Below, one piece after another: positions 3,753 through 21,653 of a DNA stretch of 22,198 nt. How positions within the stretch are numbered: position 1 is the first letter of the stretch; every line of letters starts with the position of its first letter. The DNA lies in IMG/VR virus record IMGVR_UViG_3300042520_000415, positions 1-22,198 of that record; one strand, given 5' to 3'. The notes beneath the pieces were generated by a model that made no database searches, was not told the origin of the DNA, and saw only the letters and a program-made list of their open reading frames with translations. A program made the position numbers and the translations under genes. This DNA comes from a virus.

Positions 3753-4436
3753 ATGAAAAGAAGTAACAAGCAGCGTAGTGAACGTATCCAACGTAGTGAA
3801 CGTTCATTTCATATCCAACCAAAAACCCCTAATCAACAATTATTGTTAGATGCTATTGATGAATTCCCTATTACCGTTACACTAGGCGCTGCAGGTGTCG
3901 GTAAAACTTATTGTGCTGCTTCTAAAGTTGCACAACTATTTCTAACAGGGAAATATGATCATATTATTTTAACTCGGAGTAACGTACCAACGGGTCGTTC
4001 TCTGGGTTTCTTTCCCGGTAATGTCAATGAGAAATTAACTCCTTGGTTATTACCCCTAATTTCAGTCCTAGAAAAACAGCTAGGCAAAACAAAGTACGAA
4101 TATATTGAAGCTAAGAATATTCTTCAATTACAACCACTTGAAACTATCCGTGGTCGTTCGTTTGAAAATTCCCTTGTGCTAGTAGACGAGTGTCAAAACC
4201 TTACAATAGAAGAATTAAAAGCAATAACAACCCGCTTAGGTGAGAACTCAAAAATGGTTCTTATGGGTGACAGCACTCAATCAGATATTAATTCTGGTAA
4301 TGAGATTCTTAAGTTTTGTAAGATCTGCAAGAAACATAATATTGATATTCCTATTGTAGAATTTACAGTAGATGATATTGTCAGATCAGATATTGTTGGT
4401 CAACTAGTTAGAGCATTTATTAAAGAGAAAATATAA
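3753..4436 (+). CDS. phoH: PhoH-family P-loop ATPase
   Basis: This 227-residue protein is preceded by an AAAGGA ribosome site. Walker A is GAAGVGKT (residues 45-52) and Walker B is VLVDECQN (142-149, D145/E146). The PhoH-specific patches are TRSNVPTGRSLGFFPG, ETIRGRSFENS and VLMGDSTQSD. The basic N-terminus (residues 1-17) contains a short repeat, RSERIQRSER, encoded by two 12-base copies of cgtagtgaacgt (3774-3785 and 3792-3803). PhoH-like ATPases are frequent in phages and act on RNA or nucleotides, but their exact role in infection is not settled. The gene sits 7 bases after the spanin stop, so it is probably expressed late with the lysis genes, an unusual place for a supposed metabolic gene. 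The family call is firm. Confidence 0.9.
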   Translation: MKRSNKQRSERIQRSERSFHIQPKTPNQQLLLDAIDEFPITVTLGAAGVGKTYCAASKVAQLFLTGKYDHIILTRSNVPTGRSLGFFPGNVNEKLTPWLLPLISVLEKQLGKTKYEYIEAKNILQLQPLETIRGRSFENSLVLVDECQNLTIEELKAITTRLGENSKMVLMGDSTQSDINSGNEILKFCKICKKHNIDIPIVEFTVDDIVRSDIVGQLVRAFIKEKI

Positions 4437-8082: not shown

Positions 8083-8502
8083 ATGAAAATTATTCAATTA
8101 CGACCCTCAGATGCGTTAGGTCATTGGCCCACTATCTCTAAACTATTTCTTAAAGTATTAGACCATGGGCAAGGAGAATCAACACTAACAGATTATATGC
8201 AAAAGATTCTTAACAATTATGCTCAATGTTGGGTTGTAATTGATGAAGAATCTAATATTGTTGGTGCTGGTTTAACTGAGTTTATGCAATACTCACAACA
8301 TAAAACACTTCACATTATCGCTTTTAGTGGTAATAACTTTGAAGATCAATCGAAAGTATTTCCAACCGTAGAGCAGTTTGCTAAGGATGCAGGTTGTAAA
8401 GCAATAGAACAATGGGGTAGACCCGGTTGGGCTAAAGTACTACCTCAGTACGTACCCGGATTTAAACAAGCATACGTAGTAATGCGAAAGGATATACAAT
8501 GA
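8083..8502 (+). CDS. GNAT-like small virion-cluster protein (T7 gp13 position)
   Basis: This 139-residue protein has no clear ribosome site of its own; the start lies one base after the previous stop, so it probably depends on coupled translation. The layout resembles an N-acetyltransferase (GNAT) fold. There is an N-terminal helix region, a central beta-hairpin (QCWVVIDEESNIVGAG, then TLHIIAFSG), a helix (VEQFAKDAGCKAIEQW) and a final strand (KQAYVVMRKDI). The acetyl-CoA loop typical of active GNATs (Q/R-x-x-G-x-G/A) is not visible. In T7, gene 13 is a GNAT-like protein of the same size just before the internal virion proteins, and this gene holds the equivalent place. An assembly role is more likely than catalysis. 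The stop overlaps the next start (ATGA). Confidence 0.45.
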   Translation: MKIIQLRPSDALGHWPTISKLFLKVLDHGQGESTLTDYMQKILNNYAQCWVVIDEESNIVGAGLTEFMQYSQHKTLHIIAFSGNNFEDQSKVFPTVEQFAKDAGCKAIEQWGRPGWAKVLPQYVPGFKQAYVVMRKDIQ

Positions 8503-9170
8503 AATATATTAAAGTTAAAAAGAACTATGGTGGAGGCGGTGGTACCGTCAGCACTATCCCTGATTGGGCAAAACCTTATCTTCAAAATGTGGGTAACGCA
8601 GCAGAAAAAGCTTATGGTGAGGGTGAGCTAGGTAAGGTTGCTGGTGCTTCTGCTCTCCAACAAACTGCATTTGGCGGTGGTGCTGAGGCAATGATTAAGG
8701 CAGGTCAAGGTGGAATCTCTGCTTTAGAATCCCAACAAAAAAGGCTTGGTGATTTGGCAACACAAGGTGCCTATGACACTAAAGCACTTAAAGATGCAGC
8801 TATTTTACAAGCAGGAATGGAAACTGCAAAGTTAAATCAAAACTTCGGTGGTACAGGTACATTAGGTTCAGCCAGACAAGCCGTTCAACAAGGCGCTCAA
8901 AATGCTGCTACTGCTGCACAGTTTTCTAAAATTGATTCTGAGGCTGCTCAAAAGGCTTTTGAAAATAAAATGTTAGCTGAGAAGGGTATTGGTCAAAACG
9001 TTTCTAGTGCAAGTGATTTAGCTTCCCGTACGACTTCTGGGCTAGCTTCTCTAGGTCAACAACAAAGAGGTATTGACCAACAAGGCTTAGATGCTACATA
9101 TCAGGGACTACAAAGATTTGCAAGTACAATCTATGGCAACCCCGCCAGACAACAAGCGGGAGGTAAATAA
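8499..9170 (+). CDS. Internal virion protein (T7 gp14-like position)
   Basis: This is a 223-residue protein, mostly helical by composition and rich in Ala, Gly and Gln. It begins with a basic patch and a glycine run (KVKKNYGGGGGT). The C-terminal part has the pattern SRTTSGLASLGQQQRGIDQQ followed by YQGLQRFASTIYGNPA, which I associate with podovirus internal or DNA-transfer proteins. It has no signal peptide or strong membrane helix. In T7, gp14 forms the outer-membrane part of the ejection channel; by order and size this may be the counterpart, but I cannot show sequence relationship to gp14. It overlaps its neighbours by ATGA upstream and TAATG downstream. Confidence 0.5.
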   Translation: MKYIKVKKNYGGGGGTVSTIPDWAKPYLQNVGNAAEKAYGEGELGKVAGASALQQTAFGGGAEAMIKAGQGGISALESQQKRLGDLATQGAYDTKALKDAAILQAGMETAKLNQNFGGTGTLGSARQAVQQGAQNAATAAQFSKIDSEAAQKAFENKMLAEKGIGQNVSSASDLASRTTSGLASLGQQQRGIDQQGLDATYQGLQRFASTIYGNPARQQAGGK

Positions 9171-12741: not shown

Positions 12742-15700
12742 ATGAGTACATTAGAAGAAGATGCAAGGCTATTAGCCGAATCTAGAAAGCAATTACCCGG
12801 TTCTCCGGTTACAACGATTGATAATAAACCTGTAGGTTCCCCTGTTAAAGTTATTGACCCTGATACTCTTAGGGTAGGTCAAGAATCATACCGTCTCAGA
12901 GGCTTTAATGCTCCGGAAACAGCGAAGTTCCAAGGCGGTATCTTTGTACCTAACCAAGTAGCTAATGATACATCTCAACAAGATGTTAATACTATTGCTG
13001 CATTAGGTGGTTATACAAACTTAGTTACAGAAGGTCGTGACCCTTATGGTCGTGTATTAGCTAAACAGACTAACAGACTGGGTGAATCATTAGGTGATAC
13101 ACTAACGGCATTAGGTTTACAGCGTACCAATTTACACAGCACAGATGAGGCTGTTCAAAAGAATGCCACATTAAATGCTATTTCAAGAGTACTACCTGAG
13201 CTAAGTAACTCAGATCCAATGCTACGTTATGCAAGGGAAGCTAAAGAAAAAGCTATTGCAGATGCTGGTGGTAATCCATTATACATTCCTAAGATAAATG
13301 TACATGATGAAAAGATGTATGCTGCTTTTAAGAACTCTACAGGTATTCCTGCTGTTAAAGCTGAAGTAGAAGAAGTAGCAAGGTTAGAAAAGATTCTTAA
13401 AGAAGAACAATTAAAACCAGAAACAAGAACTAACCTACAAGCTAAACTAGAACAGTCTAAACAAAGATTATTCTTAGCTGCTACTACCCCTGACATTGTT
13501 GGTGGTGTCATGACAAGACGTCCTGACCGTACTATTATGAATCAGGCTCATGATCAGTTTGATACTACTCTACACAGAGCAGCATTAGATATGTATAAGG
13601 GTCTTGGTGGTATTCTACAATTATCAGGTGACAAAGCCGAATGGGATTGGTTATCAACTAAAGGTCAAGAGATTGTAAGATCTACTAAGATGAAACAAGA
13701 TGACCTTGCTGATACCTTAACATCATTCAAAGACATCCGTACCAACGATCCTTGGACAGCTATCAAGGACACTGCAACATACTCAACTAACCTTATTGCG
13801 GGTACACTACCTAGCATGGCGTTGTTGTTAGCTTCTGTTGCTGCTACAGGCGGTACCAGCTTACCAGCTTTAGCTGCCTATGGATTGTCTACCTTACCAC
13901 CTGCTTTGATGTACTCAGGTAGCTTTTATGCAGACCAACCTGACGATAAAAAGAATGCTGAATTGGCATTAACTTTGGGTTTAGGTTCTGCTGTACTAGA
14001 CCGAGTTGGTCTTGACGGTATGATGATGAGTGGTAACATTCTCACCAAGTCAGGTAGAGAAGAAGTTAGTAATGCACTAGTACAATCAGGTAAAGCAGCA
14101 AGCATCCCTGAAGCTATGGCTATGATTGAACAAGCTACTAAACGCGAGTTGGTAGGTATGTCTAAAGCAGGTGCTGCATTAGCTAAGTCTCAATACGCTT
14201 CTTCAGAAGCTGCTTTAAGGGGCTTAGGTAAACTCACTACAGCTACTGGCGCTGAAGCTACTACTGAGAGTGCTCAACAGTACTTAGAGATGATGGCTAC
14301 TAGTGGTGCATGGAATACTGATATCCAGTATGAACGTAACTTCTACCAGAATCTTATGGACGCTGCAATTGGTGGTGGTACAATGGGTGGTATGTTTCAA
14401 ACAGCAGGTCAATTAAAAGATGCTGCTCAATGGCAATCATTAGCCAGCGCTAAAGAAGTTTACACACAACAATTAACTGAAGAACAAACATTTAACAATG
14501 ATCAACTATTAAGAGTTCGTCAAAATGACCCTACAGCCTATGCAAGCACCGTTGAGATGGTTCGTGGTGTTAAGTCACAGCCAACAAATGCACCTGTACC
14601 TGAGCTATCTAGCTTACCAGCTTTAGAGGGTGCATGGAATGGATTTAAATCTATTATTACAGACCCAGGTAGGTTATTAAGGCAGCTAGTTAACACAGCT
14701 ATTCCTAGTATTACAAAAGAAGATGGTACCTTTAAAACAAACTTAGCATACCTTAAGTCTATCATTGGTGGTAAAGGTATTTTACCCGGTGATAACTATG
14801 CTGGTTTTAAACAAAGACTTATGGGTAGCTGGTCAGGTAATACCGCCGAAGAATTAGCAAGTAACCTTGGTACTAACGTAAGTGGTGCTAATAGAATGGC
14901 TAAAGAAGCTTGGCAGAATTACTGGTCTAAAGGCCAAGAGCTACCACAAACAACTAAAGAAAATATTGAACTTCAAAATTGGAAAAACAACCTAGATACT
15001 GTTATGAATAAAATGAGAATTGAAGTTGCTCGTTTTAATACAACTAGTTCTGACCTTGATTCTACTAATCCTTTATTTGAGTCAGCAACGATTCACCCTG
15101 CTACATTAAACCGTAACAGAGAAGCAGTTATTGCGACTATGGTTGCTAACGGAAGTACCCGAAGACAAGCTATGGAAGCAATAGAGAATGTTGTTTCGGG
15201 TGACCCCGATAAAGCTAAACCAGCAAGAGACTGGATGTCTAAACATGGTGTATTTACTGATCCTAAGTTAAACAATGTGTTTGAAACTAACTTGTTTAAT
15301 AGCATGGAAACTTTAAAAGAGAATGTTGCTAACCGAATTGCTCATGAAGTATTTCTGGGTGATAATGGTATGGTACTTTCTAAACTGTTAACTCAAGCTA
15401 AAGCTAATGGCGAGTTTGAGTCTGAACAAGAGTACATGGACACCGTAAAGAACGTTCGTGACTGGTATAATATTGTTACAGGTCAGTATAACCCGTTAAC
15501 TAAGTACCCTAAGTTAGAGAAAATGCTCGGTTGGGGTGTAACCTTAACTATGTTAGCTTCATTAGGTAAGGCAGCTATTAGCTCTCAAGCTGAGGTTGCT
15601 ATGTCTACGCTTGGAACTAATGGCGATCAAGTTAAAGATCAATTAGCTCTATACGCAAAAACATTAGCTTCAGAACTACGTAATGATATTAGTGGTGGTG

Positions 15701-20824: not shown

Positions 20825-20873
20825 TAAAAAACCCCTACTAGGATTATTCCTAATAGGGGTTATTTTTTTTTTA
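20825..20873. terminator. Bidirectional rho-independent terminator between convergent operons
   Basis: The arms are 20830-20843 and 20848-20861: aacccctactagga pairs with tcctaataggggtt over 14 positions with one mismatch, around a 4-base ttat loop. A run of T follows on the + strand (20863-20872). A run of A precedes the stem (20826-20831), giving a U-run on the other strand. It lies directly after the stop of the polymerase-like gene and reaches the stop of the convergent gene, so it can end both transcripts. Confidence 0.9.
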
Positions 20874-21128
20874 TTTACTTAAATCTTTAATTTGTGATCT
20901 GATATCATCAGCTAGTTTATCAGCCAAAGATAAAGCACTAGCACTATCAATACCACGGTCAATGTAAGACTCATAATTCTCTCGATGCATTGCTTTAATA
21001 GCTGCGTCATTAATCTCAGGTGTATTAGCTAACCGAGGATCTAATCCAAGAGTAGAACAGACATCCTGATCTGTTGTTGCTGTATCACCCCTCAGGGCAA
21101 AGATATTGTAATGTTTTAACTCAGACAT
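20871..21128 (-). CDS. Small phage protein of unknown function
   Basis: This is an 85-residue acidic, helical protein. The start chosen is the ATG at 21128, because GGAAGG lies at ribosome-site distance before it. An in-frame ATG five codons upstream (21143) lacks such a site. It overlaps the Dps gene by 13 bases, so translation is probably coupled. Visible features are an N-terminal KHYNIFALRG, TLGLDPRLANTPE in the middle, and a helical C-terminus with ASALSLADKLADDI. There is no signal peptide or membrane segment. I do not recognise the family. It is the last gene of the minus-strand cluster and ends in the shared terminator. Confidence 0.6.
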   Translation of the reverse strand: MSELKHYNIFALRGDTATTDQDVCSTLGLDPRLANTPEINDAAIKAMHRENYESYIDRGIDSASALSLADKLADDIRSQIKDLSK

Positions 21129-21547
21129 GAATCTACCTTCCATTTAAGTTTAGAGACACCAGTCATATAGTCTCCGATATATGTTTCTAAAGCACCATGA
21201 CCTTCAGCACCAGCTTCTTCATATAGTTTTTGGCTACATTCAAGGATATTCTTTAGATCATCACAGGTGTTAATCAGCATATCTTTTAATTTAGTTGCAT
21301 CAGCAGCTGTGTTGGTAATACAGTTTGCCATATAAACCTTCAGGCTATTAGGTACCTTATAACCCATCTGCCTTAATTGTTCATTTAAACTATCGTGATG
21401 TTCAAATAGGTACTCATATACTTCACTAAATAAGTCGTGGTACTGAACAAAGTCAGGGCCAACAACGTTAAAGTGGTATACATGTGCGTTAAAATATGCC
21501 AGAAAATTATCGGCAATAAGGTTATTTAGTTTTGTTTGGCAACTCAT
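21116..21547 (-). CDS. dps: Dps-family ferritin-like protein
   Basis: This is a 143-residue protein starting at the ATG at 21547, preceded by AAAGGA. The open frame runs 34 codons further upstream, but that part is covered by a different small gene. It has the Dps core: LIADNFLAYFNAHVYHFNVVG, then a QYHDLF and EHHDSLNEQLRQMG pattern, then GYKVPNSL. Aligned to E. coli Dps, the ferroxidase ligands H51, H63, D78 and E82 are H25, H37, D52 and E56. The D67 ligand position is Ser41, with Glu42 next to it. Dps proteins form 12-subunit shells that oxidise and store iron and can shield DNA from peroxide damage. In a phage this could protect the host or progeny DNA from oxidative stress, or withdraw iron. 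The family call is firm; the infection role is inference. Confidence 0.85.
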   Translation of the reverse strand: MSCQTKLNNLIADNFLAYFNAHVYHFNVVGPDFVQYHDLFSEVYEYLFEHHDSLNEQLRQMGYKVPNSLKVYMANCITNTAADATKLKDMLINTCDDLKNILECSQKLYEEAGAEGHGALETYIGDYMTGVSKLKWKVDSCLS

Positions 21548-21653
21548 TTGTTTCCTTTGGTTGTTCTTTTGTTTTCTTACCGAAGATAGTATCCCAGTTA
21601 CTGCGAACTTTATCTTCGTCACACGGCCTACGACCGCTTCCTTTACCACTCAT
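21522..21653 (-). CDS. 43-residue GSGRRP...NWDxIFG phage protein
   Basis: This is a short gene with a strong ribosome site (AGGAGA, 5 bases before the ATG at 21653). It encodes MSGKGSGRRPCDEDKV, then RSNWDTIFGKK, and a Lys/Pro/Asn-rich tail, ending at a TAA 26 bases inside the Dps gene. The pattern GSGRRP...NWD-x-IFGK recurs as a small stand-alone protein in many phages in my experience, but I know of no assigned function. The basic N-terminus and aromatic NWD-x-IF patch suggest a binding protein or peptide. Overlap with Dps indicates co-expression. Confidence 0.7.
   Translation of the reverse strand: MSGKGSGRRPCDEDKVRSNWDTIFGKKTKEQPKETNELPNKTK

Follow-up and report, generated by a model that had tools for sequence, protein, structure and literature searches.

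The gene considered here encodes a ferritin of the Dps type in a stretch of DNA of 22,198 nucleotides from an uncultured tailed phage (IMG/VR record IMGVR_UViG_3300042520_000415; the whole stretch is called the window below). It raises the question of what a phage would do with such a protein, and what it means that an acidic residue of the ferroxidase centre has been exchanged for serine. The protein is a genuine phage Dps and an ordinary member of a known, widespread phage family. It probably forms a shell of twelve subunits with ferroxidase activity that oxidises and stores iron during infection, without binding DNA in the manner of the Escherichia coli protein.

The product matches the Pfam Ferritin family PF00210 (2.7e-14, 53.7 bits with a cut-off of 24.5), showing that a ferritin-like domain is present, and, along the whole protein, PHROG 3636 (2.9e-27; residues 3-142 of 143 against profile positions 8-147 of 149). 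Dozens of solved Dps proteins in PDB also match, from 1e-10 downwards, and a family profile puts Dps PA0962 from Pseudomonas aeruginosa first among the solved relatives (PDB 8ff9; 1e-43 and 2e-33). An AlphaFold2 model of the Dps subunit only, based on 69 aligned sequences, has a pLDDT of 95.0 and a pTM of 0.89. It has helices at residues 3-27, 33-60, 69-75, 87-114 and 118-142, forming a four-helix bundle with the short helix 69-75 in the B-C connection and the chain ending at helix 118-142 with no fifth helix. The short helix is equated with Leu69-Leu75, the Dps-type helix of HP-NAP in Helicobacter pylori (PMC4192664). HP-NAP (PDB 1ji4 and 3t9j) is also ranked first by Foldseek (TM 0.92, rmsd 1.5 A), and a second aligner gave Z values of 21-23 across all 143 residues against Nostoc punctiforme Dps4 (NpDps4, PDB 5hjh; Z 22.7), TeDps, MrgA and HP-NAP. 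The model also resembles A0A6J5KST5, a Dps from uncultured Caudovirales (TM 0.95) with 30% identity. The Pfam match, the PDB alignment, the predicted fold and the Foldseek result bear out the initial annotation as a phage-encoded ferritin of the Dps type, while an ordinary ferritin or bacterioferritin is ruled out by the length, the absence of a fifth helix and the Dps ligands.

The gene is under purifying selection, with dN/dS of 0.10-0.11 in comparisons with loci L002, L003 and L005. This value and the conserved flanking gene order in related phage contigs of approximately 60 kb argue against an artefact or decay. A decayed or chance ORF is further ruled out by the PF00210 match, the invariant ligands and the model, and an assembly chimera by the recurrence in L005 of the downstream virion gene and the small ORFs around dps.

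The window genes at 436-20823 run rightward and comprise virion, lysis and PhoH genes, and dps belongs to a leftward group (Table 1). In L005 and L007 the leftward group contains a DnaB-like helicase (labelled from sequence alone), a T7-type RNA polymerase, NrdA with a C-terminal glutaredoxin, NrdB, tRNAs and small ORFs, followed by dps, another small ORF and the convergent virion genes. The window dps keeps a stable position where the non-structural gene group of the phage ends. The position of the 43 amino acid ORF is conserved in L005 and L007, and no family match was found for the L005 copy; nor was any known family found in Pfam or PHROG for the ORF overlapping the end of dps. Comparison with isolates gave no matches beyond distant ones, to Roseobacter phage CRP-7 and to Bruynoghevirus-like virion proteins. 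Within the virion and lysis module there is a PhoH-like ATPase gene (3753-4436), and at 12742-13100 the N-terminus of a 1393 amino acid virion-module protein resembles a staphylococcal nuclease domain by eye, with no Pfam match.

Table 1. Features of the dps region in the window, in order of position.
Feature	Position	Strand	Remark
Terminator-like hairpin, 14-pair stem	20830..20861	minus	Separates the dps group from the convergent virion genes
Downstream ORF, at most 90 aa	20871..21143	minus	Overlaps the end of dps; L005 has a homologue in the same place (8405-8677)
dps, 143-aa Dps mini-ferritin	21116..21547	minus	ATG at 21547
Codon Glu56, ligand from partner subunit	21380..21382	minus	HP-NAP alignment; invariant
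Codon Asp52, ligand from partner subunit	21392..21394	minus	HP-NAP alignment; invariant
Codon Ser41, canonical acid replaced (E. coli Asp67, HP-NAP Glu41)	21425..21427	minus	Alignment
Codon His37, ferroxidase ligand	21437..21439	minus	Aligned to HP-NAP His37; invariant
Codon Phe26, switch residue Trp26 in HP-NAP	21470..21472	minus	Homologue alignment
Codon His25, ferroxidase site A ligand	21473..21475	minus	Aligned to HP-NAP His25; invariant
Codon His22, position of E. coli Lys48 (salt bridge to Asp67)	21482..21484	minus	Nearly always His or Gln in viral homologues
Upstream ORF, 43 aa, MSGKGSGRRP...RSNWDTIFGK	21522..21653	minus	26-base overlap with the start of dps
ORF of 62 aa	21667..21855	minus	Same leftward gene group as dps; homologue in L005

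The window protein aligns with HP-NAP without gaps up to about residue 60, so the two share their numbering in this region. In HP-NAP two subunits hold the iron between them, one supplying His25 and His37 and the other Asp52 and Glu56 (PMC4192664). All four residues are colinear in the window protein, and they are invariant in 191 homologues, namely 122 of 122 non-redundant viral sequences and 69 of 69 bacterial ones, the latter being the proteins nearest to a viral profile. Their earlier assignment as ferroxidase ligands stands, and the alignment places them within the site at the dimer interface and not outside it.

The initial annotation also held that Ser41 takes the place of an aspartate. 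The loss of an acid is confirmed but its identity is not, as the residue is Asp in the E. coli type and Glu in HP-NAP and in 60 of the 69 bacterial homologues. The window protein lacks the Asp or Glu at the fifth position of the canonical five-residue centre. It does not have the cyanobacterial His-type centre of NpDps4 either, which is defined by a His replacing the site-A Asp, position 52 in the window protein (PMC6675082), where Asp is kept. Residues other than Asp or Glu occupy position 41 in 102 of the 122 viral homologues (84%) compared with 9 of the 69 bacterial ones. The viral residues are Gly (60), Ala (13), Ser (12), Gln (10), Lys (3), Asn (3) and Met (1), with Glu and Asp in ten sequences each. 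Among 52 further non-redundant viral sequences an acid was found in six; this set was gathered with patterns described as not touching position 41, one of which demanded Glu there, a bias that if anything works against the contrast between viruses and bacteria. As judged from these alignments, Ser41 is one case of a virus-wide pattern and not peculiar to the window protein.

Studies on other Dps proteins indicate what the missing acid might mean. Asp67 in E. coli forms a salt bridge with Lys48 and lowers access to the second iron site (PMC6150300). The equivalent residue in canonical centres works at site B via a water molecule, whereas Asn67 in NpDps4 lies outside the iron coordination and iron is oxidised with O2 but not detectably with H2O2 (PMC6675082). 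P. aeruginosa Dps uses H2O2, with Fe1 held by the equivalents of H25, D52 and E56 and Fe2 only by those of H37 and E56 (PMC10002758). Because the residue is second-shell or unused in the solved relatives, Ser41 does not imply a dead enzyme. With the acid at 41 missing, H37 and E56 are probably the main ligands of the second iron site, and it is possible that the serine alters iron oxidation.

Other residues depart from the canonical pattern as well. Position 26 is F, L or V in the sub-clade of the window protein but Trp in most other homologues. The Dps proteins of PHROG 3636 and of uncultured Caudovirales belong to the same family by profile, and the sub-clade differs from them by Phe or Leu at 26 and by Ser, Gln or Lys at 41. 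PA0962 has the same four ligands and likewise no basic tail, but it is bacterial and has Glu at the position of 41 and Trp at 26. HP-NAP (144 amino acids) shares the ligands, His22 and helix 69-75, but differs in Glu41, in Trp26 and in the pore. Two of its three pore-I acids, Glu114, Asp126 and Asp127, are Gly in the window protein (G113 and G125, with D126 kept); like Phe26, these departures are read off the HP-NAP alignment numbering. Lys or Arg at 22 is paired with an acidic residue 41 in 40 of 41 sequences, consistent with a salt bridge, although the link follows ancestry and independent pairs are not significant. The idea that His22 compensates for the lost Glu41 was rejected since within viruses His22 is not tied to the loss of the acid (p = 1).

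Phage-encoded Dps had been regarded as uncommon, which does not hold. At least 576 of 599 candidate stretches in an IMG/VR scan encode a Dps relative, a direct scan with the window protein gave 19 loci with up to 87% identity, and 24 annotated public phage records carry relatives, including Synechococcus phages S-SRM01 and S-EIVl, Cronobacter phages GAP52 and A24, Aeromonas phage BUCT695 and Streptomyces phages. A phage family is already defined as PHROG 3636. Benler et al. (2021) described Dps from 'Gratiaviridae' as well as from 36 other phage genomes and proposed protection from oxidative damage (PMC8008677), and a gene for a DNA-binding ferritin-like protein is present in Lactobacillus plantarum phages (PMC6669764). 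These proteins resemble the window Dps in being phage-encoded with a proposed role in iron and oxygen stress, but the carriers are different phages, and the named gut Bacteroides-phage Dps that was sampled falls outside its clade.

In a tree of 102 rows, built without columns 22 and 41, the window protein lies deep in a virus-only clade of 56 sequences (support 95/92) and in a sub-clade with support of 100/99; the tree is unrooted and has few alignment columns, so the order within it is uncertain. Its place in the virus-only clade identifies the window dps, on sequence grounds, as an old viral gene of a virus-only lineage. The nearest annotated phage with a clade member is Synechococcus phage S-SRM01. 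The proteins from GAP52, BUCT695, Coruscant, BS162P1 and a gut phage are found outside the clade, and thus phages have acquired Dps more than once.

The four-helix mini-ferritin subunits would be expected to assemble into a 12-mer. Its shell would contain twelve ferroxidase sites, each located at a dimer interface where one partner contributes H25 and H37 and the other D52 and E56. Made during infection, such a shell would bind free Fe(II), oxidise it with H2O2 and/or O2 and store the Fe(III) in its cage, and the sequestration would lessen Fenton damage to phage DNA and enzymes. At an early stage of infection, Yersinia phage YerA41 causes strong induction of the dps and catalase of its host (PMC7354516), an observation that fits a need for a protein of this kind, and oxidative or iron stress may, as proposed earlier, be a factor during infection. 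Three further canonical features are, however, weakened in the window protein: Trp26 is replaced by Phe, two pore-I acids by Gly and the acid at 41 by Ser.

These changes lead to a possible, if tentative, alternative: a Dps whose ferroxidase centre is altered, weakened or tuned in another way by the loss of the acid at 41, of the salt bridge between Lys/Arg22 and that acid, and of Trp26. Oxidant use would then be shifted towards O2 as in NpDps4, or the protein would act mainly as an iron buffer or chelator. The difference between viruses and bacteria at position 41 and the coupling with Lys/Arg22 favour this alternative, and so does the O2-dependent NpDps4, which also lacks a carboxylate there. 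On the other hand, NpDps4 has the two extra ligands His78 and His164, absent from the window protein with its Asp52, the coupling is confounded by ancestry, and P. aeruginosa Dps keeps the acid without using it as a direct ligand. A more far-reaching version, which we regard as rather unlikely, is an old, virus-specific lineage of tailed-phage Dps whose centre has been systematically reduced to four ligands and whose oxidant preference or iron release differs from that of host Dps in a way that suits a short infection cycle. It is very improbable that the protein compacts or shields DNA as a nucleoid protein like E. coli Dps. Only the family name speaks for this, and the earlier description as DNA-protecting, if meant as binding, is unsupported: the protein has a pI of 5.07 and a net charge of about -8, and neither terminus carries a basic, Lys/Arg-rich tail of the E. 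coli type (the N-terminus is MSCQTKLNN). Several Dps proteins do not bind DNA (PMC10002758), and protection by the window protein would arise from iron and peroxide chemistry and not from coating of DNA.

Nor is dps likely to be an iron or oxygen guard for the phage ribonucleotide reductase encoded just upstream in related genomes, an explanation to which we give little credence. In L002, L005 and L007 the genes for NrdA-glutaredoxin and NrdB stop 1.7-1.8 kb short of dps, and dps abuts the anaerobic NrdD in Grimontviridae (GAP52 and BUCT695). However, clade members L008 and L010 have at the same place an adenosylcobalamin-dependent class II enzyme (TIGR02505), which needs no iron, and the change of reductase type while dps stays argues against a service to an iron-containing reductase. 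The Grimontviridae Dps is a separate acquisition, and elsewhere outside the clade reductase genes are about 4.5 kb to more than 100 kb away or absent from the record, so no general linkage was found there. It is highly unlikely that dps was captured from a host recently and has no settled role in the phage. Dps is nearly universal in bacteria according to a control search and some phages did gain it separately, but the window protein sits in the virus-only clade, dN/dS is low, and its best bacterial homologue (1e-15, 29% identity) is far weaker than the viral ones. No bacterial homologue nested beside it was seen among the best 80 genome hits. An iron-oxidising and iron-storing phage shell is the reading we prefer.

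The reductase genes upstream of dps vary within one phage clade, with class I (NrdA with fused glutaredoxin, and NrdB) in L005 (3210-6159) and L007 (3251-6270) and B12-dependent class II in L008 (4970-6847) and L010 (4583-6460). In Grimontviridae dps is located directly before nrdD (L263, GAP52; L265, BUCT695). GAP52 also has a thioredoxin-like gene close by, and in BUCT695 GrcA comes next.

The literature searched on phage-encoded Dps, mostly without subscription journals, contained nothing directly on the lineage of the window protein and no description of viral Dps proteins lacking the acid at position 41. Across viruses, Dps has lost one conserved ferroxidase carboxylate, a clean and testable difference from bacterial Dps. 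The window dps adds to the evidence that control of iron and peroxide is a constant concern for many lytic phages and that the gene is not an odd borrowed one.

Fusions of Dps to other domains are rare, with one distinct fused ORF among 258 loci, and a domain-fusion role was ruled out on this basis. In L239 (2641-4377) the Dps domain has an N-terminal extension of 120 amino acids and a C-terminal one of 319. Dps folds are also found in longer phage proteins of 333-763 amino acids annotated as prohead protease (BFVD A0A6J7WPK9, A0A6J7XDU5 and A0A6J7WIS1), which could hint that Dps is carried into the prohead.
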